Assembly: GCA_002591745.1 (NCBI GenBank)
Contig: PDLQ01000015.1
Location: 1 to 64,000 of the forward strand
Source: Lewinellaceae bacterium SD302
GTDB taxonomy: Bacteria > Bacteroidota > Bacteroidia > Chitinophagales > Saprospiraceae
Length of the DNA stretch: 64,000 nucleotides
Direction: 5' to 3'
Shown: piece after piece, positions 2,866 through 59,058 of the stretch
Layout of the letters: every line of letters begins with the position of its first letter
How positions within the stretch are numbered: position 1 is the stretch's first letter
Position numbers and translations under genes: made by a program
The notes under the pieces: generated by a model
Told to the model about the DNA's origin: nothing
What the model saw: the letters and a program-made list of their open reading frames with translations, nothing else
The model's database searches: none

Positions 2866-3765
2866 ATGGCTTTGTCCCTCGATTTAAACAACCCCAAGGA
2901 ACCAATAGTTGCTCAACGCTTTGTTGAATTGGACTCCACCAATACTGAGGCACTGCGACAATTACGCTCGGCTGACAATCGGCCCGCTCAGCGGTCTTTT
3001 ATCATTAGCGGTCACCAGACCGCCGGGCGGGGACAAGCGGGAAATGGTTGGCACGATACACCGGGCAACAACCTACTATCCACTCTCGTCTATTATCCCC
3101 AACAATTACGGGCCGCAGATTTGTTCGCTATCACCCAGGTTAGTAGTCTGGCCGTGGTAGAAACAGTGAAAATATTGACGGGAATTGATGCACTCATAAA
3201 GTGGCCCAACGATATCCTAGCAGCTCTACCGGATCGACCAAATAAAGTTCAGCAGACGGGGAATCCGGGGGGCTATCAAAGTAGCAGTGTTGATAATGAA
3301 AGTGATCAGATTGGCTTCGCGGCCAAACGGGGCAGTCAATATGCCAAACTTTGTGGATTACTCATCCAGAACAGTCTTTTCGGTAAGAACGTCCAGTGGA
3401 CCATCATCGGAGCGGGACTGAACGTCAATGAAAATAATTTTCCGGTAGAGTTAGAAAAGTCGGCCATCAGCCTGCGTAAATTGGTCGGTCACGAGTTGGA
3501 CCTTTCTACCTGCGAAGCTACTTACGCTGCTACTTTGCTAGCCAAAATAGACCAATATCTGACCCCATTGAACCGCATCGGCTTACAACGGGATTACCTG
3601 GCCCGCCTTCACCGCCTGCATGAAAAGTCGAATTACCTGAATGTAGCTACCGATACTGTTTTTGTAGGCACCATTCGCGATGTCGACTCTAGTGGACAAC
3701 TGGTAGTGGAGCACCGGGTGGGACGTTTACAACGATACGGGCTGAAGGAAATTCGATTTTTATAG
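2866..3765 (+). CDS. birA: Biotin--[acetyl-CoA-carboxylase] ligase
   Basis: Attaches biotin to the carrier lysine of biotin-dependent carboxylases. The ligase core shows GRGQAGNGWHDTPGNNLL (biotinyl-AMP binding) and KWPNDI (biotin pocket), with a small C-terminal domain. There is no N-terminal DNA-binding domain, so it is the catalytic-only type. Between KWPNDI and the CGLLIQ strand there is an extra segment of roughly 30 residues that other ligases lack, and it contains one copy of the dispersed 20-bp word (3271-3291). A second copy (3524-3543) encodes AATLLAK near the C-terminus. Divergent from rsfS. Confidence 0.93.
   Translation: MALSLDLNNPKEPIVAQRFVELDSTNTEALRQLRSADNRPAQRSFIISGHQTAGRGQAGNGWHDTPGNNLLSTLVYYPQQLRAADLFAITQVSSLAVVETVKILTGIDALIKWPNDILAALPDRPNKVQQTGNPGGYQSSSVDNESDQIGFAAKRGSQYAKLCGLLIQNSLFGKNVQWTIIGAGLNVNENNFPVELEKSAISLRKLVGHELDLSTCEATYAATLLAKIDQYLTPLNRIGLQRDYLARLHRLHEKSNYLNVATDTVFVGTIRDVDSSGQLVVEHRVGRLQRYGLKEIRFL
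3271..3291 (-). repeat. Dispersed TGCTACTTTG element, copy 1
   Basis: Core 3277-3286 on the minus strand, exact. Inside birA, read as GYQSSSV, in a segment absent from typical biotin ligases. Confidence 0.85.
3524..3543 (+). repeat. Dispersed TGCTACTTTG element, copy 2
   Basis: Core 3528-3537 exact, inside birA, read as AATLLA. Opposite in orientation to copy 1 in the same gene. Confidence 0.85.
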
Positions 3766-3822
3766 AGTCACTGGCTAGTAACTAGCAACTTCCAGGTCGC
3801 TCGAAAAAAGGCATACATAGCA

Positions 3823-3839
3823 CCGGGAGGTCGCTGGCC
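3823..3839. repeat. 17-bp repeat shared with 9572-9588
   Basis: CCGGGAGGTCGCTGGCC lies in the gap between birA and the GreA-like gene, which converge. Its exact reverse complement is at 9572-9588, just upstream of dacB. Function unknown. Confidence 0.6.
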
Positions 3840-3842
3840 GTA

Positions 3843-4295
3843 CTATTCCACCTTGATGATTGTCTGCTTCTTACCATTAAAGCTGATCGTATCTCCTTCT
3901 TTTTTACCCAAAATGGCTTCGGCCACCGGCGCGGCCTCGGAAACGCAGAAGTAATCTTTGCCTTCGAATTTTACGCGGCCCAGCCCGATGGAAACGTAAT
4001 ATACATTCCCTTTGTCGGTAGTGACCAAGCTACCCGGACCGACCTGGTCGGTCGCCATATTGCGGCCTATGGCCAGCAGTTCGGCTTGTTGAGCGAGGGC
4101 ATTGACGAGTTGACGGCCGTTTTGCTCTTCCTGACTCTGCAGCATGGAGCGCCCGGTTTCGAATTTATCGCCGGCGGAACTTTTGGTTTCCGTGGCCTTG
4201 GCTTCCGCTAACTGAGTCAGCACGACTCGCAGATCGGTGATCTTTGATTCGATGATTTGTTGGCAGTGTGCGTAAAGCGCGTCCTTTGTATTCAT
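3843..4295 (-). CDS. GreA/GreB-like small protein
   Basis: A 150-residue protein with a helical N-terminal half (Ala/Glu/Gln-rich, with the phrase KSSAGDKFETGRSMLQ) and a beta-rich C-terminal half ending LGKKEGDTISFNGKKQ. This layout resembles the coiled-coil plus C-terminal domain of GreA/GreB transcript cleavage factors. Similar Bacteroidota proteins are often mislabelled 3-oxoacyl-ACP synthase, for which there is no support here. The start was set at the ATG (MNTKDALYAHC), because the longer frame begins with TTG only three codons upstream. A direct role in RNA polymerase rescue is inference. Confidence 0.7.
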   Translation of the reverse strand: MNTKDALYAHCQQIIESKITDLRVVLTQLAEAKATETKSSAGDKFETGRSMLQSQEEQNGRQLVNALAQQAELLAIGRNMATDQVGPGSLVTTDKGNVYYVSIGLGRVKFEGKDYFCVSEAAPVAEAILGKKEGDTISFNGKKQTIIKVE

Positions 4296-4337
4296 GGTGT
4301 TCAAGTTTGTTCGGGGAAAAATGGTTTTGCAATCGGC

Positions 4338-5753: not shown

Positions 5754-5868
5754 AATGATCTTATAATCTAGTTGTCTGACAGACAAGTATATTGATGGCA
5801 GAGTCTTAAAGTAACGATATAAACTAATATACTGGTATCAGCCACCAAACCACCAGGCCGCAAGATCA

Positions 5869-7383: not shown

Positions 7384-7427
7384 AATGTTATTGCTAAAAT
7401 AGCCGCAAAGATAAGACTTCCTGCTTA

Positions 7428-8103: not shown

Positions 8104-9546
8104 TTATGGCTGGCAAAGTAGCAACAGGAACTGATTCATCATGCGGTTCAGTTCGCGTCCATCGGCCGTATAATTATTGATCATGATCGAAAACGCCAGT
8201 TTTTTGCCATCGGCCCGGAAAGCGTAACCGGCAAAACAGCGGGCACCATTTAACGATCCACTCTTAGCATACAGTCTGCCCTCGGCGGAAGTTCCCTTCA
8301 GGCGATTACGCATACTGCCGCTGCGGCCGGCTACCGGTATGGTTGAAAGGAATGATTCGTTGTCTTTCATGCTGCGCAGATAGGCCGTCATGAAAGCAGC
8401 GGGAAAATAGTTACGGGGACTCAGTCCGCTACCATCGAGCAATTGGACGGCCTCCAGGTTGAGGGCCAGTCCGTTTTCCAGTTCGTCCAGGAGCGTTTGC
8501 ATTGTATTGTTTTCAGCCACTGCTACTTTGTTAGCCACATTGATCTCCCGCAAAAGGGTTTCTGCGTAAAGATTGACACTCTTGAAGTTAGTGCGTTGGG
8601 CGATCTCGAGTAAGGTCGGGGAAGTGTGCTGATAAAGTTCGAGTTCCGGGCCGTCGGGGGCGATCAGCCTGGCCCGGCCGATGCCGCTGGCGGGTAAGGT
8701 CACATCGATTCCTGCTGCCTTCAGCGCCATTTCCAGCTCATGGGCTGCCTGACGCGCCGGATCGGGAAGACTACCTTTGATCGTGAAGCGGCCGGTGCCG
8801 GCGGGGATGGTACCCCGCAGAAAATTGCGGTAATTGAAAGGAGCGCCGTAGATGTAGGCATTATCGCCACTACCCCGGGCGGCGGTGCGCAGTTCGTTTT
8901 CGATGGTCAGGTCGGGAACATTTGGTCGGGTACCACGAATGGGGGGCGTACTGCCGAGGGTTTGTCGTTGGGTGAGGTCCAGATAGTAGAGATTATCGTG
9001 CCAGTTGAGGCCATAGCTGCCGGCGCCGTAGTAATTGCCCAAGTCGGCCCAGGGCCAGTCCATGGCAACTCCCGCCGTGCCGAAATGGCTGTCGTCTCCG
9101 ATCACCGCTCCGTTTACTTCCTGAATACCGGCAGCCTGAATTTGAGCGACGAAGGTCTTTAAAAGCCCGTCCCGGCGAGATGCGGCCGGCATCACCGGAG
9201 AGCCCAGGGTCGGGTCGCCGCCACCGACAATGATTATATCGCCGTATAGCACTCCGTTTTCAATCCTGCCTTGGGCCTTTAATCGGGTAGGAAAACGATG
9301 GTCGTCTCCGAGCAGTTTTAGGGCCACTCCGGTCGTGATCAATTTCTGGGTAGAGGCGGGAATGAGGCTGCGGCCGGGGTCATGGCTGGCAATTCTGGCT
9401 CCCGTTTCCAGGTCCATAACGTCAATACCGATGGACGCACCCGCCAGAAGTGGATCGCTGACGATGGCGTCGATACCGGGCTGAATAGACTGGGCGGTGA
9501 GCAAATAGGGGAGGAGCAGTAATGGTAAAAAGGATAAGGGACGCAT
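8104..9546 (-). CDS. dacB: D-alanyl-D-alanine carboxypeptidase/endopeptidase (PBP4 type, peptidase S13)
   Basis: Periplasmic penicillin-binding protein that trims or cleaves peptidoglycan peptides. The start was set at the ATG at 9546, which gives a clean signal peptide (FLPLLLLPYLLTAQS) and 480 residues; the 56 extra residues of the longer frame look unrelated. Catalytic motifs are SxxK (S65-TQ-K68 in IPASTQKLIT), SVN in FKSVNLYAETLL, and KSG in YAKSGSLNGAR. Two copies of the dispersed 20-bp word lie in it, one encoding NVANKVAV in mid-gene and one encoding the last residues (LLCQP). Confidence 0.93.
   Translation of the reverse strand: MRPLSFLPLLLLPYLLTAQSIQPGIDAIVSDPLLAGASIGIDVMDLETGARIASHDPGRSLIPASTQKLITTGVALKLLGDDHRFPTRLKAQGRIENGVLYGDIIIVGGGDPTLGSPVMPAASRRDGLLKTFVAQIQAAGIQEVNGAVIGDDSHFGTAGVAMDWPWADLGNYYGAGSYGLNWHDNLYYLDLTQRQTLGSTPPIRGTRPNVPDLTIENELRTAARGSGDNAYIYGAPFNYRNFLRGTIPAGTGRFTIKGSLPDPARQAAHELEMALKAAGIDVTLPASGIGRARLIAPDGPELELYQHTSPTLLEIAQRTNFKSVNLYAETLLREINVANKVAVAENNTMQTLLDELENGLALNLEAVQLLDGSGLSPRNYFPAAFMTAYLRSMKDNESFLSTIPVAGRSGSMRNRLKGTSAEGRLYAKSGSLNGARCFAGYAFRADGKKLAFSIMINNYTADGRELNRMMNQFLLLLCQP
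8108..8126 (-). repeat. Dispersed TGCTACTTTG element, copy 3
   Basis: Core 8114-8123 (minus strand), exact. It encodes the C-terminal LLCQP of DacB and ends next to the stop codon. Confidence 0.85.
8516..8536 (+). repeat. Dispersed TGCTACTTTG element, copy 4
   Basis: Core 8521-8530 exact. In dacB it is read from the other strand as VANKVAV. Confidence 0.85.
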
Positions 9547-13002: not shown

Positions 13003-13358
13003 ATCTCTAGTTGTTGGTTTGAAAAACAGTAATGTCAAAAAGTAGGAAGTAAGAAAAATTCCGAGCGAACGGTCGACCGCGAAGCTTTGCGGTCAGCTTA
13101 AAAAGAATTAGTAGGCGCTTCTATGGACTTTTGGTGTAATAACTATGGTGCCTGAAAAAGTAACGGCAGCAACAGGCTGAAATTGAGTTTTGCTGGTTCG
13201 TAGCGGCGAATATAATGACTTTTAGCTCGTACGCTGAAACGGATGCCTGTGGCCCGGTGTGTCGGCTGGGCGGATTTTGATGGCTTCAAAGTAGCAAAGT
13301 GTCTAAATGAAAACATGGTTATCCCTTCCGAACGGGGGGCTAGTCGAGCGGTCAAAAT
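13003..13358. other. Intergenic region, 356 bases, no gene
   Basis: No convincing reading frame. It holds one dispersed-element copy (13282-13302) and presumably the promoter of the protease gene. No other structure was recognised. Confidence 0.6.
13282..13302 (-). repeat. Dispersed TGCTACTTTG element, copy 5
   Basis: Core 13287-13296 (minus strand), exact, with the AAGCC right end. Intergenic. Confidence 0.8.
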
Positions 13359-15781: not shown

Positions 15782-17656
15782 TTACCCCACCATCTCCATC
15801 CACTCCATCTCCTTCTCCTCGATCTGCTCATTGAGGTCATTCAGCTCACGGCCTAGTTTGGCGATCTCGTCGGGGGAGAGCTTTTCGGCATCGGCGAATT
15901 TGGCGCTTACACTGGCTTTTCGTTTTTCCAGCTTAGCAATCTGGCTTTCCAGTCGGTTGATGGCTTTGCGCTGGTCCTGGGAGATCTGGTTCTCGGTCTT
16001 CGCTTCCGGCACTGCTACTTTGCTAGCCACCTCCTCTTTTCCAGCCTCTCGTTTCTCTTCTAACTGACGCGCTTTAAGGTCAGTACGGTACTCGCTGAAA
16101 GTGCCGTTCCAGTCGCGGATGACACCATTTCCTTCGAAAACGAAGATGTGTTGGGCGAGCTTGTCCAGGAAAAAGCGATCGTGACTGACAATGAGTACAC
16201 AGCCGGGGAAATCGAGTAGAAATTCTTCGAGGACGTTGATCGTGACGATGTCGAGGTCGTTCGTCGGCTCATCAAGAATGAGGAAGTTGGGGTTCTTCAT
16301 CAAAATGGTGAGCAGATAGAGGCGGCGCTTTTCTCCCCCGCTGAGCTGACTGACGTAAACCTGCTGTTGCTTGCGGTTGAACAGGAATTTTTCGAGCAGG
16401 CTGGCTGCCGTCAGCTTCAGCCCTTTTTCCAGGGGAATATATTCGGCGATGGCCCGGATAACTTCGATGACGCGTTTGTCGCCATCCAGTTTCATCCCTT
16501 CCTGGTTGTAGTAGCCGAAGACCGTATTGTCGCCCACAACGACCTTGCCGGTGTCCGGTCGGATCTCCTTGGTGAGCATGCCCAGGAAGGTGGATTTGCC
16601 CACTCCATTGGGGCCGATGATACCCACTCGTTCACGCCGGCGGAATTTGTAGTCGAAATTTTCGACCAGGTTCAAGTCGCCGTAGCTTTTACTAATGTTG
16701 TGGCTTTCCAGAATTTTTTTGCCTAACCGCTGGCCTTTGATTTCGATGGTCAGCTCGTCCTGACTTTTATGGCTGCCGACTTTATCCTGCAACTGGTCCA
16801 CCTTGTCGAGTCGGCTCTTTGATTTAGTGGTACGGGCCGAAGGCATTCGTCTGGCCCAGGCTAGTTCCTTCTTGAGGCGTTTTTTGTCTTTCTCGTGCTC
16901 GGCTCCGGAAATCTCGTAGCGCAGGGCTTTTTTGTTGAGGTAATCGCTGTAATTGCCGGAGTACTTGTAAAGTTCGCCGCCGTCCAACTCGGTAATGGTG
17001 TCACAGACACGTTCCAGGAAATAGCGGTCGTGAGTGACCATCAGCAGGGTAAGCTTACTGTCCTGTAACCAATCTTCGAGCCATTCGATCATGTCGAGGT
17101 CGAGGTGGTTGGTCGGCTCATCCATAATGATCAGATCGGGAGCGTCGATGACCAGTTTGGCCAGCGCCACTCGCTTGCGTTGTCCACCGGATAGGGTAGC
17201 CACCTGCTGATTAATATCCTTGATGTTCAGTTTACTCAGCGTTTCCTTGATCTTGGCTTCGGTATCCCAGGCCTGGAGGCGGTCCATTTTGGTCAGGGCC
17301 TTTTGCAGCCGCTCGCCATTTTCGCCACCCAGGATCAGGGCTTCCTCGTACTCACGTACGGTGCGGATGATCTCGTTGTCACTGTCAAAGACCGCTTCCA
17401 GTACCGTTTGGTTATTACCAAAATCGGGTTCCTGGGGCAGGTAAGCCAAGCGGGCGTCGCGGTGGACGTAGCATTCCGATCCTACGCCTTCGGGATTGTC
17501 GATGCCGGCGGCTACGCGCAGCAGGGTAGATTTACCCGTACCGTTTTTGGCAACCAGGGCCATTTTCGCTCCCTTATTCACGGGCAGGTCTACGCCGTTG
17601 AACAGTACCTTTTCACCGTAGGACTTGGAAACGTTTTTAAGTTCTAAGTAGATCAT
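15782..17656 (-). CDS. ABC-F family ATPase, Uup-like
   Basis: Soluble tandem ABC ATPase of 624 residues. NBD1 has GTGKST and the signature LSGGQRKRVALAKL with IIMDEPTNHLD; NBD2 has GPNGVGKST, LSGGEKRRLYLL and LILDEPTNDLD. A charged linker (ELAWARRMPSARTTKSKSR) joins them, and a C-terminal Lys/Glu-rich coiled coil follows, as in Uup. ABC-F proteins act on ribosomes; Uup also affects transposon excision. The linker before the coiled coil (residues 543-550, VASKVAVP) is encoded by a dispersed-element copy. Confidence 0.92.
   Translation of the reverse strand: MIYLELKNVSKSYGEKVLFNGVDLPVNKGAKMALVAKNGTGKSTLLRVAAGIDNPEGVGSECYVHRDARLAYLPQEPDFGNNQTVLEAVFDSDNEIIRTVREYEEALILGGENGERLQKALTKMDRLQAWDTEAKIKETLSKLNIKDINQQVATLSGGQRKRVALAKLVIDAPDLIIMDEPTNHLDLDMIEWLEDWLQDSKLTLLMVTHDRYFLERVCDTITELDGGELYKYSGNYSDYLNKKALRYEISGAEHEKDKKRLKKELAWARRMPSARTTKSKSRLDKVDQLQDKVGSHKSQDELTIEIKGQRLGKKILESHNISKSYGDLNLVENFDYKFRRRERVGIIGPNGVGKSTFLGMLTKEIRPDTGKVVVGDNTVFGYYNQEGMKLDGDKRVIEVIRAIAEYIPLEKGLKLTAASLLEKFLFNRKQQQVYVSQLSGGEKRRLYLLTILMKNPNFLILDEPTNDLDIVTINVLEEFLLDFPGCVLIVSHDRFFLDKLAQHIFVFEGNGVIRDWNGTFSEYRTDLKARQLEEKREAGKEEVASKVAVPEAKTENQISQDQRKAINRLESQIAKLEKRKASVSAKFADAEKLSPDEIAKLGRELNDLNEQIEEKEMEWMEMVG
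16008..16028 (+). repeat. Dispersed TGCTACTTTG element, copy 6
   Basis: Core 16013-16022 exact, read from the other strand in the ABC-F gene as VASKVAV. Confidence 0.85.
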
Positions 17657-22879: not shown

Positions 22880-22975
22880 GGGTAGTGCCGGACTATAATT
22901 ATCTCTTTGTGCTCCCCGCCCGTCTCACGGGCTTTGTCTCTTCCCGGCCGTATTTATCTATTCTTGGTATTTTTT

Positions 22976-27553: not shown

Positions 27554-27572
27554 CACTGCTACTTTGAAGTCC
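27554..27572 (+). repeat. Dispersed TGCTACTTTG element, copy 10 (left arm of hairpin)
   Basis: Core 27557-27566 exact. Forms a perfect 16-bp stem with copy 11. Confidence 0.9.
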
Positions 27573-27582
27573 AAATAATTAT

Positions 27583-27600
27583 GGCTTCAAAGTAGCAGTG
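27583..27600 (-). repeat. Dispersed TGCTACTTTG element, copy 11 (right arm of hairpin)
   Basis: Core 27588-27597 (minus strand), exact. Confidence 0.9.
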
Positions 27601-33495: not shown

Positions 33496-33518
33496 GGCTA
33501 ACAAAGTAGCAGTGCTGG
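33496..33518 (-). repeat. Dispersed TGCTACTTTG element, copy 12
   Basis: Core 33502-33511 (minus strand), exact, full-length consensus with CCAG at its 5' end. Confidence 0.9.
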
Positions 33519-33840: not shown

Positions 33841-33861
33841 CGCACTGCTACTTTGCCAGCC
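33841..33861 (+). repeat. Dispersed TGCTACTTTG element, copy 13
   Basis: Core 33846-33855 exact, 45 bases before the lpxK ATG. Confidence 0.9.
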
Positions 33862-43445: not shown

Positions 43446-45374
43446 CTAATATTCCAGCTTCGACTGAAAATAGGTCACGAATTCTTCGATCGTCATTGCT
43501 CCCTGATCGCCTTCTCCTTGCAAGCGCACTGCTACTTTGTTAGCCTCCGCTTCTTGCTCTCCGATAATGAGCATAAAGGGTACACGCTTGAGTTCGGTAT
43601 CACGAATTTTACGGCCGATGGTTTCGTTACGGTCATCGATAAAGCCACGGATGTCGTGCTTGGCCAGTTCTTTCTCCAGGCCTGCACAGTAATCGTTGAA
43701 GCGGTCACTGATCGGCAGAATCGCGATCTGGTCAGGAGCCAGCCAGAGGGGAAATTTCCCCCCGGTATGCTCGATTAGGATGGAGGTAAAGCGCTCCAAT
43801 GAACCAAAGGGCGCACGGTGCAGCATCACGGGGCGATGAGGCTTGTTGTCTTTACCGATGTACTCCAGTTCGAAGCGTTCGGGTAAGTTGTAATCCACTT
43901 GTACGGTACCCAGCTGCCAACTGCGGCCGAGGGCATCGCGGACCATGAAGTCGAGTTTTGGGCCATAAAAGGCTGCTTCGCCGTAGGCCGTGACCGTCTT
44001 CATATCGATCTCGCGGCAGGCATCGATGATGGCTTGTTCGGCGATGTTCCAGTTCTCATCGTCGCCGATGTATTTTTCTGGTGTATCCGGATCACGCAGG
44101 CTGATCTGGGCCGTTACATCATCGAAACCGATGAGCTTGAGAACATCCTTTACGATGTCGACCACCGCGATGAATTCTCCTTTCACCTGCTCGGGCATAC
44201 AAAAGATGTGGGCATCATCCTGGGTAAAGCCACGTACCCGGCTCAGGCCGTGCAGTTCACCGGTTTGCTCGTAGCGGTACACGGTTCCGAATTCCGCGAA
44301 GCGCAAGGGTAGCTCCCGGTAGGAACGTGGGCGGAACTTGTACATCTCGCAGTGGTGGGGACAATTCATCGGCTTGAGCATAAACTCCTCGTCTACCCGC
44401 GGCGTCTTGATGGGCTGGAAACTGTCTTCTCCGTATTTGTCCCAGTGGCCACTGGTGACGTACAGTTCTTTCTTGCCAATGTGGGGAGTGGTCACCTGCT
44501 GGTAACCGGCGTTCTCCTGCTTCACTTTCAGGAAATTGATCAGCCGTTCCCGCAACTGGGTTCCCTTGGGTAACCACATCGGCAGACCGGCACCGACCTT
44601 GTCGCTAAACATGAACAGCTCCAGTTCCTTACCCAGTTTGCGGTGGTCACGCTTCTTGGCCTCTTCCAGCATTTCCAGGTAAGCCTTCAGTTCTTTGGCT
44701 TTAGGGAAGGAGATGCCGGAAATTCGGGTCAACTGAGGATTGCTTTCGTCACCGCGCCAAAAGGCACCGCCTACTTTCATCAGCTTGATGGCCTTGATCG
44801 CTCCGGTATTTGGGATGTGTGGTCCCCGGCAAAGGTCGGTAAATCCGCCCTGAGTATAGAAAGTAATGGTCCCGTCTTCCAGGTCCTCAATGAGTTCCAG
44901 TTTGTATTGATCGCCCTTTTCCTGGAAATAAGCAATAGCGTCGGCTTTGCTGACTTCCTTACGGACGTAGTCATTTTTTTGCCGCGCCAGTTCAATCATT
45001 TTGGCTTCGATCTTCGGAAAGTCGTCGGAGCTGATTACCGTTCCTTCCGGCGGCTCCACATCGTAGAAAAATCCGTTTTCTCCAGCCGGGCCGTAGCCGA
45101 ACTTGATACCGGGGTAGAGAGCTTCCAGAGCTTCGGCCATCAGGTGGGCCGTGGAGTGCCAGAAGGTTTCCTTGCCTGTCTGGTCATTCCAGGTGTGGAG
45201 GGCCAGGGTAGCATCTTGTTGAATAGGGAGTTCGCGGTCGGTCAGTTGACCGTTGACGGTGGCCGAAACCACGTTACGGGCCAGGCCCTCGCTGATACTC
45301 TTGGCAACGTCCATGGCGGATACGCCGGACTCGTACTGACGGACATTACCGTCAGGGAAAGTGATGTTGATCAT
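43446..45374 (-). CDS. thrS: Threonyl-tRNA synthetase
   Basis: Class II synthetase of 642 residues, the usual bacterial length. It has an N-terminal TGS domain ([16 protein letters not shown]), the editing domain with HWSTAHLM-like [13 protein letters not shown] and [14 protein letters not shown], and the catalytic core ([61 protein letters not shown]). The C-terminal anticodon-binding domain follows. Near the C-terminus ANKVAVR is encoded by a dispersed-element copy, at a position where other ThrRS have a similar KVAVR segment, so no insertion was needed. Confidence 0.98.
43525..43545 (+). repeat. Dispersed TGCTACTTTG element, copy 17
   Basis: Core 43530-43539 exact, read from the other strand in thrS as ANKVAV within a conserved part of the protein. 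Confidence 0.85.
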
Positions 45375-46408: not shown

Positions 46409-49315
46409 TTATCTCCGACTCACTTGCCCCCGGTAAACCTCACCAGTGGCGGTCTGCAAGCGGTAGAAGTAGTTTCCGGCGCTCAGATTGGTCGGCAGCA
46501 GCGTCCATTGAGTTGGAGTGGCAGCGGCTAAATCTTTTTGCTCCTGCAATACTATCCGTCCGTCCGCAGCGTAAAGCTCCAGGGTGGCCGGGCCTCCAAT
46601 CAGCTGATTAGGGACAGCGAAACTGATCTGGTCGACGAAGGGATTTGGATAGGCTGGCAAAGTAGCAGTGGTCCGGCTTACCATACTGCCAACATTGCTA
46701 CTTTGATAGTCCAAACCGATTGCTTCTTCCAGAACTGTGTCGTCTAGCGTAAGTACGGCCATAGCTGGAATACGTCGGGTGCTGATTTCCAGTAAATCGG
46801 AAATTGATCCGCCACGCTCATCACTGAGTGTAAGGGTGAAGTGCTGGCTACTGCCATTAACAATCTGACCGCAGAAATTCAAGGCGCCCCATTCGTTCAA
46901 GTGGGCGTATTCCGTGGCACCAGATGAAGAAGTGACTTTATTGATATTCAGCCCGGCGAGAGAAAATTGATAATCAGCCTGCTCGGCGGCTTGGTGCTGG
47001 AAATTGACGCTCAGGTCGACTTCCGTCGGTTGACCCGCACTCAATACCAAGTCTTCGATGATGATATTGACGGATGCATCGTTGCTGCGCGCTAATACAT
47101 CAGTAGTTCCCTGGAAGTCTTCACCATCGAATTCGGCATTGCCATTTACGTCACCACGCTTGTAAGCGACGAAGTCCTGGTTGATCAACATCATGGCAGG
47201 TGTTGGCAGTGTGATGCTGGTAGGGTAGTTGTCTAACCAAGGCGCTTCGGGGTTGGCAAATACGTAGTCGGCTGGGATGAAATTCCACATCGGCTCATCA
47301 GTCGGCAGCGCCTGGTCGAGGTCCAGGATCAACCGGCGAATGGCGATGATATCGGTGATCATAATATTGCCGTCCACGTTGGCGTCGGCAGCCAGGTATT
47401 CGTAGGGGCTGTCGAAGGTTTCGATACCCAGAATATGGCGGGAGATCAGCACGATGTCCTGAACACTGACGCCATTGATCCAGTCATCATTTTCAAAAGC
47501 GGGGGCCAGGGTACCGGCTTCACATACGGGGATACCCTCAAAATTAAAGTTACCTTCCGGGTCAGTGAAAAGGTTGGTCTGCATTTCACCGTCAACGAGG
47601 TAGTCGATCTGCACCTCGTTCATCTGGTTGTTGCTTTCGTGGATGGTTACGTTGCCAGTCACCGTACTGGTAGCACTACCGCAAATGTCGGCGTAGGGCA
47701 TAGCCAGGAAGACGTTGTCTTGCATCAAACTGATGCCGGTGTTGTGCATGATAATATCGCGGAAAGTGGTGTTGTGGATGTCTGCTTTCTGGTCCTCAGT
47801 CAGTACGGGGTCGTTGAGGTAGAAGAAGCGATCGCCGTCCCGCAGGCGAGTAAATTGCTGGGAGAGAATAGTGAGTAATGTCTGACCAAAAAGCGCATCA
47901 GGCATTGGTGATTCGGCGAGCATGCCGATCCAGGGGTCGACCTCGTTGACGTTGCCGAAATAAGCCTGAAAAAGTAAACTGTAAACACTTACGTCAGCAT
48001 TGATCTGCTCCAGGAAGAAGTAAGGAGCAAGACCGTGAGCCTGGCGGATGGCATTGAAGCTAGGTAAGCCGCGTTCCCGCCCCCTGGCGATATTGATGGA
48101 GGCCAGGTCCGTCCCACCGGCACCGGGAGGGCCAAAGAGAAAGTTGCGTACGTCGTCGACAATCCGGCTATCCATGGTTTGTTGTACCTGCTGTCCCATT
48201 CCGGCCAGGTAGGGGTCGATTCCGCCAACTTCCGGAAGAGCATTAACGTTGAAAAAGCCGTTGCGCAACAGCATATGCCCTTCTGGAAGTTCGTTGCCAT
48301 TGTTGTCAACGCGCAGGATCAGGCTGTTTAAAAGCGTATGCCCCACCCGGAAACCGGCGGCCGTGAAAGTGTTGGAAAGCTGGGGGTGGATGGTTTCGTC
48401 ATAACCGCTGTAGTCTGCGATCGGCACGCCCATGGCTGGCAGCCACTCGTTGTATGTAATGGCGGCGATGTGTCCGCCAACGTACTTACGCGCCAGCTGA
48501 TAAATTTCTTCGTCCGTCCAATCCGGATGCTCGGTTTTAATGATCTCGGCACGGCGGTTATGTTCACGAACGAACAGGGTGTGAAAGGAGGTCAATAAAG
48601 GATTTTCGTTGGCGCGCACGTCACCAGCTACAAAAAGACGCGGCGAAAAACCCACGTCATCACCCATGTGGGGAGCATCCGGGTCTATCGGGCTGTCAAA
48701 CTCTCCGTCGATGGTGTTGTAAGGCAGCAGGTTGCCGGTGGAGACTTTCATCTTGCCGTCTTCGAATGAGCGTAGCCAGGCGGCTCGTTCCTCGTCGGAG
48801 CCATAGACGGCCGAGCCGTCGATAAATGCCGTGATCTCGTTGGCGTACTGGGCGGGGTTATCCACGTCCAGCCCGGTTCCATCCATGAATTTGGTGCGGT
48901 TTACGCTGATCTCGACGTTGCCGAAACCGAGTGGATCCAGATCGGGATCACCCTGGGGTACCGGTACGTTAAAAGGTTCTTCGGTACCTTCAGTAAGGCC
49001 CAGATCGTGGTCCATGAACTGGCCAAAGACCCAGGTGAAATCACTCAGGGTCATGGGGTCTGGCAATAGGTCCGGTTGGTCGAAGATGAGGTTAGAGAGG
49101 TAGCGGGCGTTGGGGCGATCCGCACCGGCAGGGCTGGAAAAACCATCGGCAAAACCCACGCCGGCAATTTGCAGCAAAGCAGTGTGAGCCGCTCCCCATT
49201 CAGGGTTGTTTACGTTGTTTTGAGTGCCGTCGATGGTGCGGTAAAGTGCCGGGTCCTGGGCAAAGATGGCCACACAGAAAGTGGCGGCCATAAATGTGAG
49301 TAGCTTTCTTTTCAT
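46409..49315 (-). CDS. Secreted animal-type heme peroxidase with dockerin-like repeats and T9SS domain
   Basis: A 968-residue exported protein; the start at ATG 49315 (MKRKLLTFMAAT) gives a signal peptide. The peroxidase domain (about 20-560) has the distal histidine in FGQFMDHDLGLTE (His103), SFHTLFVREHNRRAE, YVGGHIAAITYNEWLP and the proximal-side region FRVGHTLLNSLI. Calcium-loop dockerin-like units follow (DANVDGNIMITDIIAIRRLIL, GDVNGNAEFDGEDF). The T9SS type A domain (LPAYPNPFVDQISFAVP to GQVSRR) ends it. Two opposed dispersed-element copies encode the linker before the sorting domain. Confidence 0.9.
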   Translation of the reverse strand: MKRKLLTFMAATFCVAIFAQDPALYRTIDGTQNNVNNPEWGAAHTALLQIAGVGFADGFSSPAGADRPNARYLSNLIFDQPDLLPDPMTLSDFTWVFGQFMDHDLGLTEGTEEPFNVPVPQGDPDLDPLGFGNVEISVNRTKFMDGTGLDVDNPAQYANEITAFIDGSAVYGSDEERAAWLRSFEDGKMKVSTGNLLPYNTIDGEFDSPIDPDAPHMGDDVGFSPRLFVAGDVRANENPLLTSFHTLFVREHNRRAEIIKTEHPDWTDEEIYQLARKYVGGHIAAITYNEWLPAMGVPIADYSGYDETIHPQLSNTFTAAGFRVGHTLLNSLILRVDNNGNELPEGHMLLRNGFFNVNALPEVGGIDPYLAGMGQQVQQTMDSRIVDDVRNFLFGPPGAGGTDLASINIARGRERGLPSFNAIRQAHGLAPYFFLEQINADVSVYSLLFQAYFGNVNEVDPWIGMLAESPMPDALFGQTLLTILSQQFTRLRDGDRFFYLNDPVLTEDQKADIHNTTFRDIIMHNTGISLMQDNVFLAMPYADICGSATSTVTGNVTIHESNNQMNEVQIDYLVDGEMQTNLFTDPEGNFNFEGIPVCEAGTLAPAFENDDWINGVSVQDIVLISRHILGIETFDSPYEYLAADANVDGNIMITDIIAIRRLILDLDQALPTDEPMWNFIPADYVFANPEAPWLDNYPTSITLPTPAMMLINQDFVAYKRGDVNGNAEFDGEDFQGTTDVLARSNDASVNIIIEDLVLSAGQPTEVDLSVNFQHQAAEQADYQFSLAGLNINKVTSSSGATEYAHLNEWGALNFCGQIVNGSSQHFTLTLSDERGGSISDLLEISTRRIPAMAVLTLDDTVLEEAIGLDYQSSNVGSMVSRTTATLPAYPNPFVDQISFAVPNQLIGGPATLELYAADGRIVLQEQKDLAAATPTQWTLLPTNLSAGNYFYRLQTATGEVYRGQVSRR
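46652..46670 (-). repeat. Dispersed TGCTACTTTG element, copy 18
   Basis: Core 46658-46667 (minus strand), exact, read as TATLPA in the peroxidase just before the sorting domain. Inverted pair with copy 19. Confidence 0.85.
46693..46712 (+). repeat. Dispersed TGCTACTTTG element, copy 19
   Basis: Core 46696-46705 exact, read from the other strand as DYQSSNV. The 22-base spacing to copy 18 would allow a hairpin in the mRNA. Confidence 0.85.
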
Positions 49316-49489
49316 GAAGTCTGGTATCTTACCCAAGTGATGTGGCTCGGGAATGTTCTTGAGATTATAATACAAAAAGTCCGTGGGGTGCTGATTACAA
49401 ATATAAGCAAGCCAAACCTTTAGGTCCCGTCCTAACTCCTAAATTAACAGTACGTTGACCAGAATCATTTGTGCCAATGACCGATATCT

Positions 49490-51256: not shown

Positions 51257-51274
51257 GACTTCAAAGTAGCAGGG
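51257..51274 (-). repeat. Dispersed TGCTACTTTG element, copy 20
   Basis: Core 51262-51271 (minus strand), exact. Left boundary of the nested repeat block. Confidence 0.85.
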
Positions 51275-51295
51275 ATTTGAGCTCGTCCGCCGAAA

Positions 51296-51536: not shown

Positions 51537-51557
51537 CTCACTGCTACTTTGTTAGCC
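51537..51557 (+). repeat. Dispersed TGCTACTTTG element, copy 21
   Basis: Core 51542-51551 exact. Right boundary of the nested repeat block, 70 bases before the next gene. Confidence 0.85.
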
Positions 51558-53406: not shown

Positions 53407-55445
53407 AACTCCGCCAAGTACTGGAAGCCGAGCAAAAAATCCTTGCCGCCCGCCGCAAAAAGCACTTCAGTGAGGACTTCGCTGATGCTCTGGATGAAAA
53501 CCGTTTCGGTATCGCGCTCAGTGGCGGTGGCATTCGTTCGGCGGTCATTAACCTGGGGGTACTCAAGACCCTGCAGCGTTTCAATATTCTGAAGCAGGCG
53601 GACTACCTCAGTTCGGTCAGTGGGGGTGGCTACACCAACAGCTACATCCAGGCTATATTGCAAGGGGACGGCGGATACGACGATCTCTTTCAGGACGATC
53701 ACATCGACTATCTCCGCAAACGGGGCCGCTATCTTTTTCCCGGCGAAGGCTGGCACAAAATTTGGAATATCATCACCCTCGTCGTCGCCTATGTGGTCAG
53801 TCTGGCGATGAGCCTGGTGAGCCCGGCGATTATCCTGGGGGTGGGCTACGTATTGCACCTGATCCTGTGGGATGTTTTTGATTTTTCCATTAATCAGATT
53901 TCCAGTTTCGTCAATGATTTGCTGCTCAATGGTGGTATCGTGCTGGCCGTCATCATCGGAATCCACTATTTGTTCAATACGATATTCGTCTACCGGCTGC
54001 ACATCTCCAGTTGGTACAATCGGCTGGAAGCGGCTGCGGTGCTGCTACTCATGTTAGGGGTGGCGGGTAGTCTGTTCTGGGGATTCCGGGGCGTGCGTGG
54101 GCTGGATGCCAACAGTCTGCTACCCATGCTGGCCGTCATTTTCTTTCTGATCGTAATGGGCTTTATCACCAACCCCAATGCCACCAGTTTTCACCGCTTT
54201 TATCGCAAGCAGTTGGCAGATGCATTTTTGCATTTTGCCGAAGGAGATAAAAACGTTCTGCTCCACAAAATGCAGCATACCGGGGAGGAGAGGGAATTAG
54301 CTCCTTACCCGCTGATCAATACGACTTTGAATCTGCAAAGTAGCAGTGATCCCAATTTTCAGGGCAGCAAGGCCAGCGATTATTTTCTGCTCTCGCCCAA
54401 TTACTGCGGCTCCAAGTTGGTCGGCTACGTACCCACGAACGAAGCTAAGGGTTATCGCGACCTCACCCTGCCCTCGGCCATTACGATCAGTGCGGCGGCG
54501 GTTAACCCGGGCATGGGTGCTTATAGCAGCAAAATCCTGAGTATTCTCACTACTTTATTCAACCTCCGGCTCGGCTTCTGGATCTGGAACCCCATGAAAC
54601 TGGTGAGCAAATACCCCGTAGTCTGGTGGCCGGCCTACTTCTTTTACGAGTTGTTCAGCCGGATCAGCACGGATAAATTGATGGTCAACATTTCCGATGG
54701 CGGGCACATCGAAAATCTGGGCGTGATGGAACTACTCCGCCGCCGCTGCCGCCTCATTCTGGCCGTAGATGCTGAGGCAGACCCGTTTTACATTTTTGGG
54801 GCTTTGGAAAACCTGACGGTCCGGGCCCGCAATGAATTGGGCATCGATATCCGCTTCCGCGACGACCAGGTGCCAGAAAGGGTTATCCGCCCCCGCCCCA
54901 GTCATGGCTACAGCCAGCAACGCTACGCCATCGCGGATATGTATCAGCTATGGGATAAGGTGGAAACGCCCCGGGGAGAGGAGATCGTCCACTACGACGA
55001 CTATAAAATCGGCACTTTCGTCTACCTCAAATCCAGTGTAACCGCCCCCGTGGGCCGACCGGAAATTTCGCGTGACGATGTACTGCGCTATGGCACCTAC
55101 AAGTACAAAATTTATAATCCCTCCTTCCCCCACGAAAGTACGGCCGACCAGTTTTTTGATCCCATTCAGTGGGAAAGCTACTTCCAGCTCGGGCAGTGGT
55201 TGGCTGCTGATTTGTTACACTGTGACGATCCCGAACATTACTCGGGTGACAACCGATACATGATCAGTCTGGAAGAATTACAGGATTTTTTCCAGCACGG
55301 TACGCCACTTACCTTCCCTCACGATCCGGTGGCCGATTTTGAAGCCAGCTTTGAGAAAAAATTAAGCGAGACACCACACGACGAAACCGAAGAACTCGTA
55401 GACGAAAGCCGTACCACCGGAAGGCCGACGTCATATAAAATGTAG
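53394..55445 (+). CDS. Membrane-embedded patatin-like phospholipase
   Basis: A 683-residue protein with a patatin fold split by membrane helices. The oxyanion loop is ALSGGGIRSAVINLGVL, the nucleophile Ser is in LSSVSGGGYTN and the catalytic Asp is in NISDGGHIENLGVMELL. Between nucleophile and Asp (about 120-270) are four or five hydrophobic helices (WNIITLVVAYVVSLAMSL, AIILGVGYVLHLILW and others). It probably hydrolyses membrane lipids from within the bilayer. Its ATG lies inside the toxin gene (13-base overlap). One dispersed-element copy is read as LQSSSD. Confidence 0.85.
   Translation: MDNLELRQVLEAEQKILAARRKKHFSEDFADALDENRFGIALSGGGIRSAVINLGVLKTLQRFNILKQADYLSSVSGGGYTNSYIQAILQGDGGYDDLFQDDHIDYLRKRGRYLFPGEGWHKIWNIITLVVAYVVSLAMSLVSPAIILGVGYVLHLILWDVFDFSINQISSFVNDLLLNGGIVLAVIIGIHYLFNTIFVYRLHISSWYNRLEAAAVLLLMLGVAGSLFWGFRGVRGLDANSLLPMLAVIFFLIVMGFITNPNATSFHRFYRKQLADAFLHFAEGDKNVLLHKMQHTGEERELAPYPLINTTLNLQSSSDPNFQGSKASDYFLLSPNYCGSKLVGYVPTNEAKGYRDLTLPSAITISAAAVNPGMGAYSSKILSILTTLFNLRLGFWIWNPMKLVSKYPVVWWPAYFFYELFSRISTDKLMVNISDGGHIENLGVMELLRRRCRLILAVDAEADPFYIFGALENLTVRARNELGIDIRFRDDQVPERVIRPRPSHGYSQQRYAIADMYQLWDKVETPRGEEIVHYDDYKIGTFVYLKSSVTAPVGRPEISRDDVLRYGTYKYKIYNPSFPHESTADQFFDPIQWESYFQLGQWLAADLLHCDDPEHYSGDNRYMISLEELQDFFQHGTPLTFPHDPVADFEASFEKKLSETPHDETEELVDESRTTGRPTSYKM
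54333..54348 (-). repeat. Dispersed TGCTACTTTG element, copy 22
   Basis: Core 54336-54345 (minus strand), exact, read as LQSSSD in the patatin protein. The 3' half of the consensus is poorly conserved. Confidence 0.75.
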
Positions 55446-55462
55446 CCTGGGCCAGACCTTTA

Positions 55463-55537
55463 CTGCTGCTTTAGCTTTGCTGATCGTCGTCGAAAAATTA
55501 GTGCTCATTCCTGGCCAGCACTGCTACTTTGTTAGTC
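55463..55537 (+). repeat. Composite repeat: second box plus dispersed element copy 23
   Basis: Box B (55464-55491, starts TGCTGCTTTAGCTTTGCTGA) is followed after 23 bases by element 55515-55537 (core 55522-55531 exact). The same B-then-element order occurs on the minus strand at 59058-59002. It lies 20 bases before the ATG of the next gene. Confidence 0.75.
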
Positions 55538-55557
55538 AAAATACTTACCTTGAACCT

Positions 55558-56874
55558 ATGGATTTTTTTAACGACCTCCAGGACTACTTCGCCACCCTCA
55601 GCAGCCAGCAAATGTTGTTTTTCTGGCTGGTGGCCGGATTACTGTTCATTATCGGTCTACTCATTGGCCTGCTCATTCGAGGCAGTGCCCTGAAACGCTA
55701 TAAAGCGCAATATCTGATCGTTGATAAGGAAAGAGCAGACCTCCAGGCGAGTTACGATCGGGCCAGTGCGAGGGAAAAGGCATTGGAAAAAGAAGTGGCC
55801 GCCCTGAGCCGCGAAAAAGTTGCCGCTCTGGAACGTTTGGAAGAAGTGGAATCCGTCCAGCCGGGATCGACTGAAGAAGAAGGTGATGAAGTACGCACAC
55901 TTCAGGATCAGTTACAACTTTTACGCAGTGAAAATCAGCGGTTATTGGCCCAGGTGAATGATGGGGACTACCAAAGTAGCAATGCTGGTAGCTCCGCAGG
56001 CACTGACTCGACAGTACCGGGTGACCTGCAGGATTACCTGGACGCGGCCGAAGCAAGATTCCAGGCTTTCGAGCAGCGCCTGAGTGAGTTGTCTTCCGAG
56101 AATCAACGCTTAGAGGCAGGCATTAATAGTTCGGCCGGCAATAATGGTAATGACCGAAGTATCGACGCTCCTTACGGCACGCCTCATCAGCCCATCATCG
56201 GCAGCCCTACTCCCGTGCAAGAAACTGACGGAGAACCATTGGTTATCCGTGCCGACATCACCGAAGCAGGCGTTCGTACAGACCAGGACGGCGGTATGGA
56301 AGTTATCGTTGATACCACGCCCAGCCTCGTGGTACCCGTCCTTCCCCCGGATGGGGTAGTAGCGGACGACCTGAAAATGATCAAAAATATCGGCCCTTTT
56401 CTCGAAAAACAGCTCAATGAGCAAGGGGTTTATACCTACGCCCAGATTGCCGGTTGGTCCGAAGAGGATGTGGTCGAAATCACTAAGAAGATCGGTTACC
56501 TCCCCGGTGTGATCGCCAAGGCTGACTGGACGGGACAAGCGAGAAGATTGCAGTCCGCCGCAAAGGATTCTGCCGCTACGCAACAAGAGCGAAGCATTCA
56601 GCCGGCCACGAAGAAGATAAAAGACAATCCGATCAAGATGAGCAATTTACAGGTCATCGAGGGCATCGGCCCGAAGATCGAATCTATCCTGAAAGCCGGT
56701 GGCGTTGATAGCTTAATTGAATTGGCGGCAAGTTCCGAAGACAAACTGCGCAGCATCCTGGCTGAGGCGGGGAATCGCTACAAGTCTCATAACCCGAGCA
56801 GTTGGCCAAAACAGGCGACCTTGGCAAAGGATGGAAAACTGGAGGAATTGAAGAAACTACAAGACAGTATGTAA
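55558..56874 (+). CDS. Membrane-anchored coiled-coil protein with two helix-hairpin-helix domains
   Basis: A 439-residue protein. The start at ATG 55558 (MDFFNDLQDYF) puts a transmembrane helix (MLFFWLVAGLLFIIGLLIGLLI) at 18-42. A long coiled coil follows (about 45-200, KERADLQASYDRASAREKAL and similar), then two HhH-type segments: DDLKMIKNIGPFLEKQLNEQGV and LQVIEGIGPKIESILKAGGV. Such GIGP motifs bind DNA or occur in small scaffold domains fused to NuoE or ribosomal proteins. The combination suggests a membrane tether for nucleic acid, but this is inference. A dispersed element encodes DYQSSNAG in the linker. Confidence 0.75.
   Translation: MDFFNDLQDYFATLSSQQMLFFWLVAGLLFIIGLLIGLLIRGSALKRYKAQYLIVDKERADLQASYDRASAREKALEKEVAALSREKVAALERLEEVESVQPGSTEEEGDEVRTLQDQLQLLRSENQRLLAQVNDGDYQSSNAGSSAGTDSTVPGDLQDYLDAAEARFQAFEQRLSELSSENQRLEAGINSSAGNNGNDRSIDAPYGTPHQPIIGSPTPVQETDGEPLVIRADITEAGVRTDQDGGMEVIVDTTPSLVVPVLPPDGVVADDLKMIKNIGPFLEKQLNEQGVYTYAQIAGWSEEDVVEITKKIGYLPGVIAKADWTGQARRLQSAAKDSAATQQERSIQPATKKIKDNPIKMSNLQVIEGIGPKIESILKAGGVDSLIELAASSEDKLRSILAEAGNRYKSHNPSSWPKQATLAKDGKLEELKKLQDSM
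55966..55988 (-). repeat. Dispersed TGCTACTTTG element, copy 24
   Basis: Core 55972-55981 (minus strand), exact, read as DYQSSNAG. Confidence 0.85.
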
Positions 56875-56877
56875 GCG

Positions 56878-57000: not shown

Positions 57001-57044
57001 ACATACGCAAGCGAGGCACCAGCGTCCACAAGCGCGGAGTTTGT

Positions 57045-58382
57045 CTAAACGTCTGCCGCAGAAAAGGCTTCTAAGTAATCCCCAATTTTTCTCAGGAAAG
57101 TTCCGCCCAGGGCACCGTCTACCACCCGGTGGTCATAGCTCAGGCTCATAAACATGAGTTGACGAACGGCGATGACATCGCCATATTCCGTTTCCACCAC
57201 GGCGGGTTTTTTCTTGATGGTCCCCACGGCCAAAATGGCGACTTGCGGCTGATTGATGATGGGAGTACCCATGACATTACCGAAAGTACCCACGTTGGTG
57301 AGGGTGAAGGTTCCTCCCTGAGTTTCGTCCGGTTTGAGTTTGCCGGCGCGGGCGCGTGCTGCCAGGTCGTTAACGGTTTTGGACAGGCCCAAAAGGTTTT
57401 TCTCGTCGGCGTTCTTGATCACCGGTACGATCAGATTTCCACTGGGCAGTGCTGCGGCCATACCAATGTTAATGTCGCGTTTTTTGATGATTTTAGTACC
57501 ATCTACGGAAACATTGATTCCGGGAAAATCCACGATGGCTTTGGCTACGGCCTCAACGAAGATAGGCGTAAAGGTAATTTTTTCACCGTGTTGCTCCTGG
57601 AAGGCTTTTTTGTTGCGGTTACGCCAGTTGACGATGTTTGTGACGTCCACCTCGATAAAGGAGGTAACGTGAGGCGAAGTATGCTTTGACTTCACCATGT
57701 GGTCGGCGATAAGGCGGCGCATACGATCCATTTCCACGATCTCCTCACCGGCCTGGGGACGGTAGGGGGCGGCAGCCGGCTTATCTGATTTCGGAGCAGC
57801 GGCAGCAACGGGCTTCGGCGCGGAATTGCCGTTCAGGAAACTATTGTCGCGGCGCTTTAGATAAGCGGCCATGTCCTTTTTAGTTACCCGGCCGTTTTTG
57901 CCGGTGCCGGGGATGGACTCCAGCTCGGCGGTACCAATATTTTCTTTCTCGGCGATGGAGCGTACCAGGGGACTGTAAAAACGGTCGTCGTCTGGCGAAA
58001 CGGTATGACCAGTGCTGGTTGCGGGAGCAGCTACTGCCGGAGCTTTTGCAGCTGTAGGAGCCTCTTTTTTCTCCGCCTCCTGGGTAGGGGCTTGCTCACC
58101 GGCGGATGCTACCGTAGGAGAAGGGGAAACTTCCGCTCCTGCTTCGGTTTCAATGATGGCGATGACTTGGCCAATAGCTACAACATCGTCTACCTGGAAG
58201 AGAATTTCTTTCAGTGTGCCGGCTACGGGGGAGGGCACTTCACTGTCTACTTTATCAGTAGCGATCTCAAGAATGGTATCGTCTACCTCTACTTGTTCTC
58301 CTTCTTGCTTGACCCAATTAAGGATCGTCGCTTCCATGATACTTTCGCCCATCTTGGGCATGATCAGTTCTACTTGGGCCAT
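57045..58382 (-). CDS. 2-oxo acid dehydrogenase E2 (dihydrolipoyl acyltransferase)
   Basis: Core acyltransferase of a 2-oxo acid dehydrogenase complex, 445 residues. It has an N-terminal lipoyl domain with the lipoylated lysine in EIATDKVDSEVPSPVAG (Lys44), an Ala/Pro-rich linker, an E3-binding domain (YSPLVRSIAEKENIGTAELESIPGTGKNGR in part), a second linker and the catalytic domain ending SYDHRVVDGALGGTFL (His and Asp of the active site). One lipoyl domain and the sequence style suit a branched-chain or 2-oxoglutarate type rather than a typical PDH E2, but the substrate is not certain. No E1 or E3 genes are adjacent. Confidence 0.92.
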   Translation of the reverse strand: MAQVELIMPKMGESIMEATILNWVKQEGEQVEVDDTILEIATDKVDSEVPSPVAGTLKEILFQVDDVVAIGQVIAIIETEAGAEVSPSPTVASAGEQAPTQEAEKKEAPTAAKAPAVAAPATSTGHTVSPDDDRFYSPLVRSIAEKENIGTAELESIPGTGKNGRVTKKDMAAYLKRRDNSFLNGNSAPKPVAAAAPKSDKPAAAPYRPQAGEEIVEMDRMRRLIADHMVKSKHTSPHVTSFIEVDVTNIVNWRNRNKKAFQEQHGEKITFTPIFVEAVAKAIVDFPGINVSVDGTKIIKKRDINIGMAAALPSGNLIVPVIKNADEKNLLGLSKTVNDLAARARAGKLKPDETQGGTFTLTNVGTFGNVMGTPIINQPQVAILAVGTIKKKPAVVETEYGDVIAVRQLMFMSLSYDHRVVDGALGGTFLRKIGDYLEAFSAADV

Positions 58383-58480
58383 TATTAAGCTGGTTTATCG
58401 CGCCGGAATATTAAAAAAGTGGTGGCATTCCGGTCGCTGTTAGGCCCTGCAAAGGTACTGCTTTTGTCGAATCCTTTTCG

Positions 58481-58900
58481 CTAATATTGAATATCTCCGT
58501 TGCGAACTTGTTTAACGGAAGTGGCTATCAGTTCCCGTAGTACATCCATATCCACGTCGCTCAGTCGCTTTATGTACAAACAGCTTTTACCGGTCTTGTA
58601 TTTACCAAGTTTTTCCAACAGATCGGCCTGACGCCCGATACCACCCATCAGGTAAAGAGAAATAGCAGATTTGCGAGGACTAAAGCCGGTTTCCATCCAA
58701 TCGCCTTCCCGGCCACTGGCGTAAGTATAGTGGTATTTGCCAAAGCCAATTATACTCGGACCCCACATTACTGGTGACTCGCCGGTGATTTCCTGCATCA
58801 AATCGATGATCGTTTGTGCATCGGCTCTTTTCTGTTCGTTGTCAACCGTAGCCAGAAAATCGGAAACGGAGACGTTAGTAGGGGTGGTTTTATTAGCCAT
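58481..58900 (-). CDS. DUF1801 family protein
   Basis: A 139-residue cytoplasmic protein of the DUF1801 (YdhG-like) family. SVSDFLATVDNEQKRADAQTIIDLMQEITGE, MWGPSIIGFGKYHYTYASGREGDW, FSPRKSAISLYLMGG and GKYKTGKSCLYIKRLSDVD follow the family's order. Function unknown. The start was set at ATG 58900 (MANKTTPTN); 13 more residues precede it in the longer frame. Confidence 0.87.
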   Translation of the reverse strand: MANKTTPTNVSVSDFLATVDNEQKRADAQTIIDLMQEITGESPVMWGPSIIGFGKYHYTYASGREGDWMETGFSPRKSAISLYLMGGIGRQADLLEKLGKYKTGKSCLYIKRLSDVDMDVLRELIATSVKQVRNGDIQY

Positions 58901-59001
58901 TAGAAGTTGTTTTGATTGGTGATTTTGAGGAACACCCAAATATTTTGAAGTATTTCAATTAGCTACTCCGCAAGGTTTTAAGATCACTAGGGAGACTATT
59001 A

Positions 59002-59058
59002 CTGACAAAGTAGCAATGCTGGCTGCGGTTGACAACGATCAGCAAAGCCAAAGCAGCA
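59002..59058 (-). repeat. Composite repeat: dispersed element copy 25 plus second box
   Basis: Element core 59006-59015 (minus strand) is exact. Box B is 59031-59058, differing at two of 28 positions from 55464-55491. Only 8 bases separate them. Lies in the 291-base gap between DUF1801 and the NTF2-like gene, which are divergent. Confidence 0.75.

Follow-up and report, generated by a model that had tools for sequence, protein, structure and literature searches.

A dispersed ten-base word in Lewinellaceae bacterium SD302, a putative DNA-uptake sequence with differently spelled counterparts among its congeners

The question raised by the locus studied here is why a single ten-base word, TGCTACTTTG, recurs inside and between genes throughout a stretch of 64,000 bp of contig PDLQ01000015.1 from Lewinellaceae bacterium SD302. 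This stretch is referred to as the window, and the genome to which it belongs (5,478,864 bases in 147 contigs) as G000. The window contained 23 exact copies of the word, whereas its dinucleotide shuffles (n = 100) contained 0.07 on average and 2 at most, which bears out the excess over chance claimed in the initial annotation. With a probability of roughly three in four, the word appears to be a putative DNA-uptake sequence that has accumulated by molecular drive and has diverged into dialects.

The word is real and genome-wide. In G000, 675 forward and 669 reverse copies were counted (1,344 in total, approximately one per 4 kb), against 9 + 7 (16 in total) for a control with reversed letters, and the extended form TGCTACTTTGNNAGYC was present in 351 + 363 copies with 0 + 0 in the control. 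Since 675 + 669 copies stand against 9 + 7 over the whole genome, the count is far above the control and the copies are not confined to the region of the window, the opposite of the two outcomes that the initial annotation had named as contrary to its proposal. The whole-genome draft totals also showed no orientation bias of the kind known from Chi or FtsK orienting polar sequences (KOPS), in agreement with the earlier description of the word as non-polar. Within the window, 11 exact copies were on the plus strand and 12 on the minus strand; the balance previously noted was thus retained, whereas the former tally of 12 and 13 included two variants.

The anatomy of the word was read from 833 kb of G000 (approximately 15%), holding 222 exact copies, of which 188 were in the first 693 kb. 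Among these 188 copies, the conserved block extended from about -5 to +21. Its ten-base core is preceded by C at -3 in 94% and by a pyrimidine at -1, and is followed by AGYC and an A-rich stretch; AGYC is set off from the core by two bases (110 copies) or by a single base (50 copies), and 28 copies had neither spacer form. The word had been described as a fixed 20-base unit, which was correct as to the conserved flanks but too rigid in view of the variation at -3 and in the spacer. In the 86 copies from the earliest stretches whose flanks were complete, conservation decayed beyond roughly -20 and +25. One-mismatch cores with intact flanks numbered 38 in the 833-kb sample, the mismatch being at the first letter in 18, at the seventh in 17 and elsewhere in 3. 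Six one-mismatch copies were found in the window, including the one at 39813(-) with the correct downstream flank. The two spacer forms occur side by side in G000.

The copies in the window, together with a transformation-associated gene that itself holds one, are located as follows.

3277..3286, minus: word copy, antisense in a biotin/lipoate-ligase-family gene (2866-3765)
3528..3537, plus: word copy, sense in the same biotin/lipoate-ligase-family gene (2866-3765)
8114..8123, minus: word copy, 3' end of a Peptidase_S13 gene
8521..8530, plus: word copy, antisense in a Peptidase_S13 gene
13287..13296, minus: word copy, intergenic
16013..16022, plus: word copy, antisense in an ABC_tran/ABC_tran_CTD gene, in the gap separating its domain matches
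22907..24073, plus: dprA, transformation-associated (PF02481, 4.4e-63; TIGR00732 barely above cut-off), holding the next copy
23849..23858, minus: word copy inside dprA, in the region joining the DprA domain to the winged helix
25408..25417, plus: word copy, codon 17; the gene encodes a type IX secretion system (T9SS) sorting tail
27557..27597, no strand assigned: inverted pair of word copies that folds into a hairpin, flanked by convergent genes (-30.9 kcal/mol, z -10)
33502..33511, minus: word copy, intergenic
33846..33855, plus: word copy, intergenic
38918..38927, plus: word copy, sense in a Peptidase_M56 gene
39813..39822, minus: one-mismatch copy TGCTACCTTG, downstream flank intact
43295..43304, minus: word copy, codon 13; this gene also encodes a T9SS sorting tail
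43530..43539, plus: word copy, antisense in thrS
46658..46667, minus: word copy in gene 46409-49375
46696..46705, plus: word copy, inverted partner of the 46658 copy
51262..51271, minus: word copy, intergenic
51542..51551, plus: word copy, intergenic
54336..54345, minus: word copy, antisense in gene 53394-55445
55522..55531, plus: word copy, codon 16 of gene 55477-56874
55972..55981, minus: word copy, antisense in gene 55477-56874
59006..59015, minus: word copy, intergenic

Genic and intergenic positions were called with a simple purpose-made gene caller and no curated annotation. On this basis, 15 of the 23 exact window copies were genic and 8 intergenic, in a window with an intergenic share of 11.6%; of the 15 genic and 10 intergenic copies previously counted among 25, the first number stands and the second becomes 8 for exact copies. 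In the 833-kb sample, 129 of the 222 copies were intergenic against 13.8% intergenic DNA, and among genic copies 49 were in sense and 44 in antisense orientation. In the first set, which had 83 genic copies, the main readings were ATL in sense and KVA or QSS in antisense, and the antisense frame that gives a stop was unused. Several frames on both strands and the intergenic excess agree with the previous observation that the same DNA is translated differently in different genes and also lies between genes. Two window copies lie between domains, in dprA and in the ABC protein, three window genes have a copy within their first 17 codons, and others fall inside Pfam domains (Peptidase_S13, Peptidase_M56 and the ThrS anticodon domain). 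Signal-peptide coding was considered as a cause and rejected: the first 30 codons held an excess of copies (15 of 83 versus approximately 6.4 expected), but sense equalled antisense and most copies were elsewhere. A second repeat, TCGGCGGACGAG, flanks two inverted word copies at 51284(-) and 51519(+) and is also repeated in the congener G017 (L045 8862-9061).

An origin of copies by point change was clear in one case, thrS, where the seven nearest congeners read (E/D)(A/S)GGVA(V/L) and G000 reads EANKVAV, a change of GG to NK with no insertion or deletion. An aligned congener was available for 12 of the 93 genic copies, and most of these alignments gave no clear reading because of divergence or noise.

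The spacing of loci was more even than random, with a coefficient of variation of 0.60 compared with a simulated mean of 0.84 and a lowest value of 0.66 in 1,000 random sets. Neighbouring copies had the same orientation in 45 of 181 pairs (p 8e-12). Counted in successive 500-bp intervals up to 4 kb, the same-strand pairs of the first 693 kb numbered 2, 0, 0, 3, 5, 5, 10 and 11 against approximately 12 expected in each, and opposite-strand pairs closer than 500 bp were raised (31 versus 12.8 expected). This pattern was put on record before positions 20001-120000 of contig C115 were examined. The second set of 140 kb (34 copies) consisted of that region and two earlier 20-kb stretches outside the first count, one with sites already seen; it contained no same-strand pair within 2 kb (8.4 expected) and 8 opposite-strand pairs within 500 bp (2.0 expected). 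A shadow on the 3' side suggested by the first set (26 divergent and 6 convergent pairs at 0.5-2 kb, p 0.0005) was discarded, as the pooled congeners gave 18 and 18; the second G000 set had 0 and 0, too few to judge.

Within the genus, abundance of TGCTACTTTG is confined to the G000 species, as revealed by the comparison of related genomes that the initial annotation had proposed. None of the 20 congeners had more than 12 copies. In 39 further relatives the count did not exceed 38; a few of these genomes were two- to fourfold above their reversed control and far below 1,344. Of 397 other family genomes, 27 had one or two copies of the extended form and none had more. Viral contigs gave 32 single matches and none with two. 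The congeners use other spellings. K-mer searches of sampled congener stretches yielded TGCACCTGCG, with TTGCTC upstream and NCCSCGCCCAAA downstream, which was counted in G005 (1,193), G014 (1,134), G002 (1,098), G003 (756), G006 (640), G010 (617), G008 (594), G018 (578), G011 (518) and G015 (364), in nine remaining congeners (61-252 each) and in G001 (28); in 39 genomes outside the genus it did not exceed 35, some of these being above their control. A matrix built from G005 and G014 detected sites in seven of the eight other sampled congeners but none in G001, with 0-1 per genome in the Markov control. In the sampled stretches, GGCACCTGCG was foremost in G015 (14 versus 5 of the standard word), TGCACCCGCG was foremost in G019 (8 versus 4), TGCACCCGCG and CGCACCTGCG had 7 copies each in G020 (versus 2), and TGCTCCTGCG was about as frequent as the standard word in G017 (7 and 6). 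The shortened form TTACCTGCGC..CCGYCGCC occurred 17 times in 149 kb of G001 and at most 4 times in the other samples. No dialect was named for G004, G007, G012, G013 and G016, because their samples of 9-29 kb each are too small.

The same-strand exclusion over 2-3 kb recurs with the other spelling. Nine congeners were pooled (960 kb, 210 matrix sites), since a single congener species was too small to judge, and gave 11 same-strand pairs within 2 kb against 47, 11 against 22.9 at 2-3 kb, and normal values beyond. The pooled count is not a blind test because much of this DNA had already been viewed with a simpler pattern.

By eye, the G000 word and that of the congeners can tentatively be aligned without gaps as nGCnnCnnnG, and both are relaxed at the first and seventh letters: the positions tolerated in G000 (35 of 38 mismatches) also vary in congener sites, and in G017 the fourth letter varies as well. 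Homology of the two words is suggested by this similar build and not by statistics. In a tree of ThrS and DprA (20 of the 21 species; outgroups with DprA only), G000 was sister to the rest of the genus, with support of 87 for the rest of the genus and 98 for the genus. In other genera, represented by 20-66 kb each of G021, G023, G033, G034 and G035, no convincing word was detected, and a sparser word would escape at this scale; 60 kb of G000 or G014 was enough to detect their own word. The candidate TAAGTGCC in G034 was rejected, as its flanks were not conserved. Short tandem arrays of mini-repeats (units CTACCGCCTA, CTAACAGA and ACTCCCGACT) were also observed, differing between relatives (L047 8789-8806 and 17818-17912; L036 1432-1457; L042 6031-6350; L043 278-535; L250 3695-3788).

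Regarding machinery, DprA was found in 20 of the 21 genus genomes, the sole miss being a genome that is 55% complete. Among named organisms, the DprA nearest to that of G000 belongs to Flavilitoribacter nigricans (46%), a member of the Lewinellaceae. Matches to PF00437 occurred in 20 of 21 (11 above cut-off), each covering at most 84 of 370 positions, and probably represent other ATPases. On C115 of G000, a porin-like protein (L261 5673-8474) with CarboxypepD_reg and Plug matches, both below the Pfam cut-offs, is followed by a protein with a lipoprotein-like start and three DUF5689 domains (L261 8514-10601; 2.8e-111). This pair is a candidate reader, proposed by analogy and for G000 alone. Of 298 family genomes, 233 had a porin match (E up to 1e-30), and the less significant matches perhaps represent distant relatives only; at the best 29 porin loci outside G000, the pair was adjacent in 26, and the other three loci end just past the porin. 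In NCBIfam, the DUF5689 lipoprotein was nearest to the M949_1556 family, well below its cut-off, and this name does not support uptake because the literature, as far as the portion consulted extends, ties it to lipopolysaccharide (PMC6557517). A sequence search of the PDB with the DUF5689 protein and its alignment gave nothing at E up to 1. A link between receptor and dialect through this pair was attractive because, among the 21 genomes, the pair occurs in G000 only; it was abandoned because the loss of the pair and the split of dialects would fall on one tree branch and amount to a single event, and in view of how widely the porin occurs, including in genomes with no convincing word.

The uptake-sequence reading is favoured because the abundance, strand balance, use of several frames, intergenic excess, even spacing and species spellings fit it, and the same features uphold the broader earlier claim of a dispersed word of uptake or binding-site type that acts at the DNA level. 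Several points weigh against it. The uptake role is deduced from sequence patterns. ComEC was found in 21 of 21 genus genomes, but 10 of 14 control genomes match too, E. coli included, so that ComEC together with DprA is not diagnostic. The secretin PF00263, part of the known outer-membrane machinery of Neisseria and Haemophilus, was found in 0 of 21 genus genomes and 6 of 14 controls, which makes a classical pilus reader unlikely. Neither DUF5689 (E up to 0.001) nor the porin (E up to 1e-30) was detected in the 20 congeners, although these have words, whereas a protein closely related to the porin is present in G021, G033 and G034, with no convincing word in 49-66 kb each. Finally, the six largest word-free gaps contained no obvious foreign island by eye, without library annotation.

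Under the uptake reading, a surface reader would bind CA(C/T)TGCTACTTTG-N(1-2)-AG(C/T)C-AAA DNA in preference to other DNA, and imported DNA strands would enter via ComEC, be shielded by DprA and recombine. Molecular drive would then spread the alleles bearing the word, which would come to rest at sites under weak protein constraint, and the congener spellings would be dialects of one ancestral system. We infer both that the word is read at uptake and which protein would read it. The same-strand exclusion may be the trace of a polar uptake step, which is proposed because orientation-blind drive, as envisaged for Haemophilus in the parts of PMC1939737 consulted, does not predict it. A porin and a surface lipoprotein (of DUF5689 type in the G000 species and something else in the congeners) would grip the word and feed DNA one way, so that words on each strand would serve opposite flanks and be driven independently; same-strand words would be redundant for the DNA served and opposite-strand words would not, leaving a same-strand exclusion zone of 2-3 kb. 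This scheme of pilus-independent, sequence-specific and polar uptake in Bacteroidota, in which a change of reader changes the dialect, is tentative and rather doubtful. Avoidance of deletions between direct repeats may be an alternative cause of the exclusion, though probably a weak one for words so short at 2-3 kb.

Even spacing and a same-strand exclusion of approximately 3 kb would also fit a structural or replication-linked role, in which the word is the dispersed site of an intracellular protein for chromosome organisation, segregation or recombination and its spacing is kept by selection; the even spacing of the Haemophilus word led Karlin et al. to suggest such a role (cited in PMC1939737, consulted in part). 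This alternative is weakened by the lack of net polarity in the 675 and 669 copies, by local alternation of orientation, by the shift of spelling between species and by the length of the motif, whose core and conserved flanks span approximately 25-30 bases, and we regard it as improbable. The strong hairpins formed by some close inverted pairs in intergenic DNA might instead suggest a regulatory or terminator element, but a distance of 60 bases or less was seen in only 7 of 181 neighbouring pairs, of which one is tandem, and 93 of the 222 copies were genic, on either strand, so that this explanation is very improbable. Slighter still is the likelihood that the copies are remnants of approximately 1,300 insertions of a mobile repeat, like repetitive extragenic palindromes or miniature inverted-repeat transposable elements: such a repeat would account for the intergenic excess and the close inverted pairs, but not for cores that fall in several reading frames on either gene strand, even spacing, the limits of conservation around the core, the near absence of the extended form from other family genomes, or the thrS site, the one clear case free of insertion or deletion.

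Established uptake words, according to the partly consulted literature, belong to the Neisseriaceae and Pasteurellaceae, users of type IV pili. In the open literature, as judged from titles and the beginnings of abstracts and with subscription journals mostly outside, no such word was found for Bacteroidota or Saprospiraceae, and same-strand exclusion is not described in those parts of the literature on the DNA uptake sequence (DUS) and uptake signal sequence (USS) that were consulted. If the uptake reading is true, the occurrence of genus-wide dialects in Saprospiria where no secretin is detected would imply different uptake hardware, the reader could be found by comparing species, and word-based preference for self DNA would be wider than thought. 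The same-strand exclusion would be a quantitative trace of mechanism that could be searched for in the classical systems.

Among known systems, Chi and KOPS are polar relative to replication; the G000 word is likewise short, frequent and dispersed, but it is strand-balanced and alternates locally. A closer parallel within the same phylum is Riemerella anatipestifer, in which, according to the available portion of PMC8459023, no pilus homologues were found and RS04915 (a predicted beta-barrel with a carboxypeptidase-regulatory domain) and the DUF5689 protein RS04920 are essential for transformation. G000 shares ComEC, DprA and a DUF5689 protein, which in G000 lies beside a porin-like protein with domain matches below cut-off; the two pairs correspond in domain kinds. 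R. columbina favours its own DNA; no uptake word is established there, the most frequent 10-mers shown being A-rich (PMC7965970, in part), whereas G000 has an abundant word. The DUS of Neisseriaceae is a short word with very many copies inside and between genes, inverted hairpin pairs and species spellings (PMC3630211, in part), and the G000 and congener words are similarly multicopy, genic and intergenic, paired in hairpins and spelled by species. They differ from the DUS in a density of approximately one copy per 4 kb, in the absence of a detected secretin in the genus, in cores that diverge between G000 and the congeners at 4 of 10 letters and in the 3' half, and in the rarity of same-strand copies within approximately 3 kb. 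The USS of Pasteurellaceae, as portrayed in the consulted parts of PMC7811141 and PMC1939737, is fairly evenly distributed in Haemophilus, and its opposed close pairs act as terminators; the G000 word is also evenly distributed, with oppositely oriented close pairs. The Haemophilus USS has a mean spacing of approximately 1 kb and is taken up independently of its orientation (PMC1939737, in part), whereas the G000 word occurs approximately once per 4 kb and shows same-strand exclusion.

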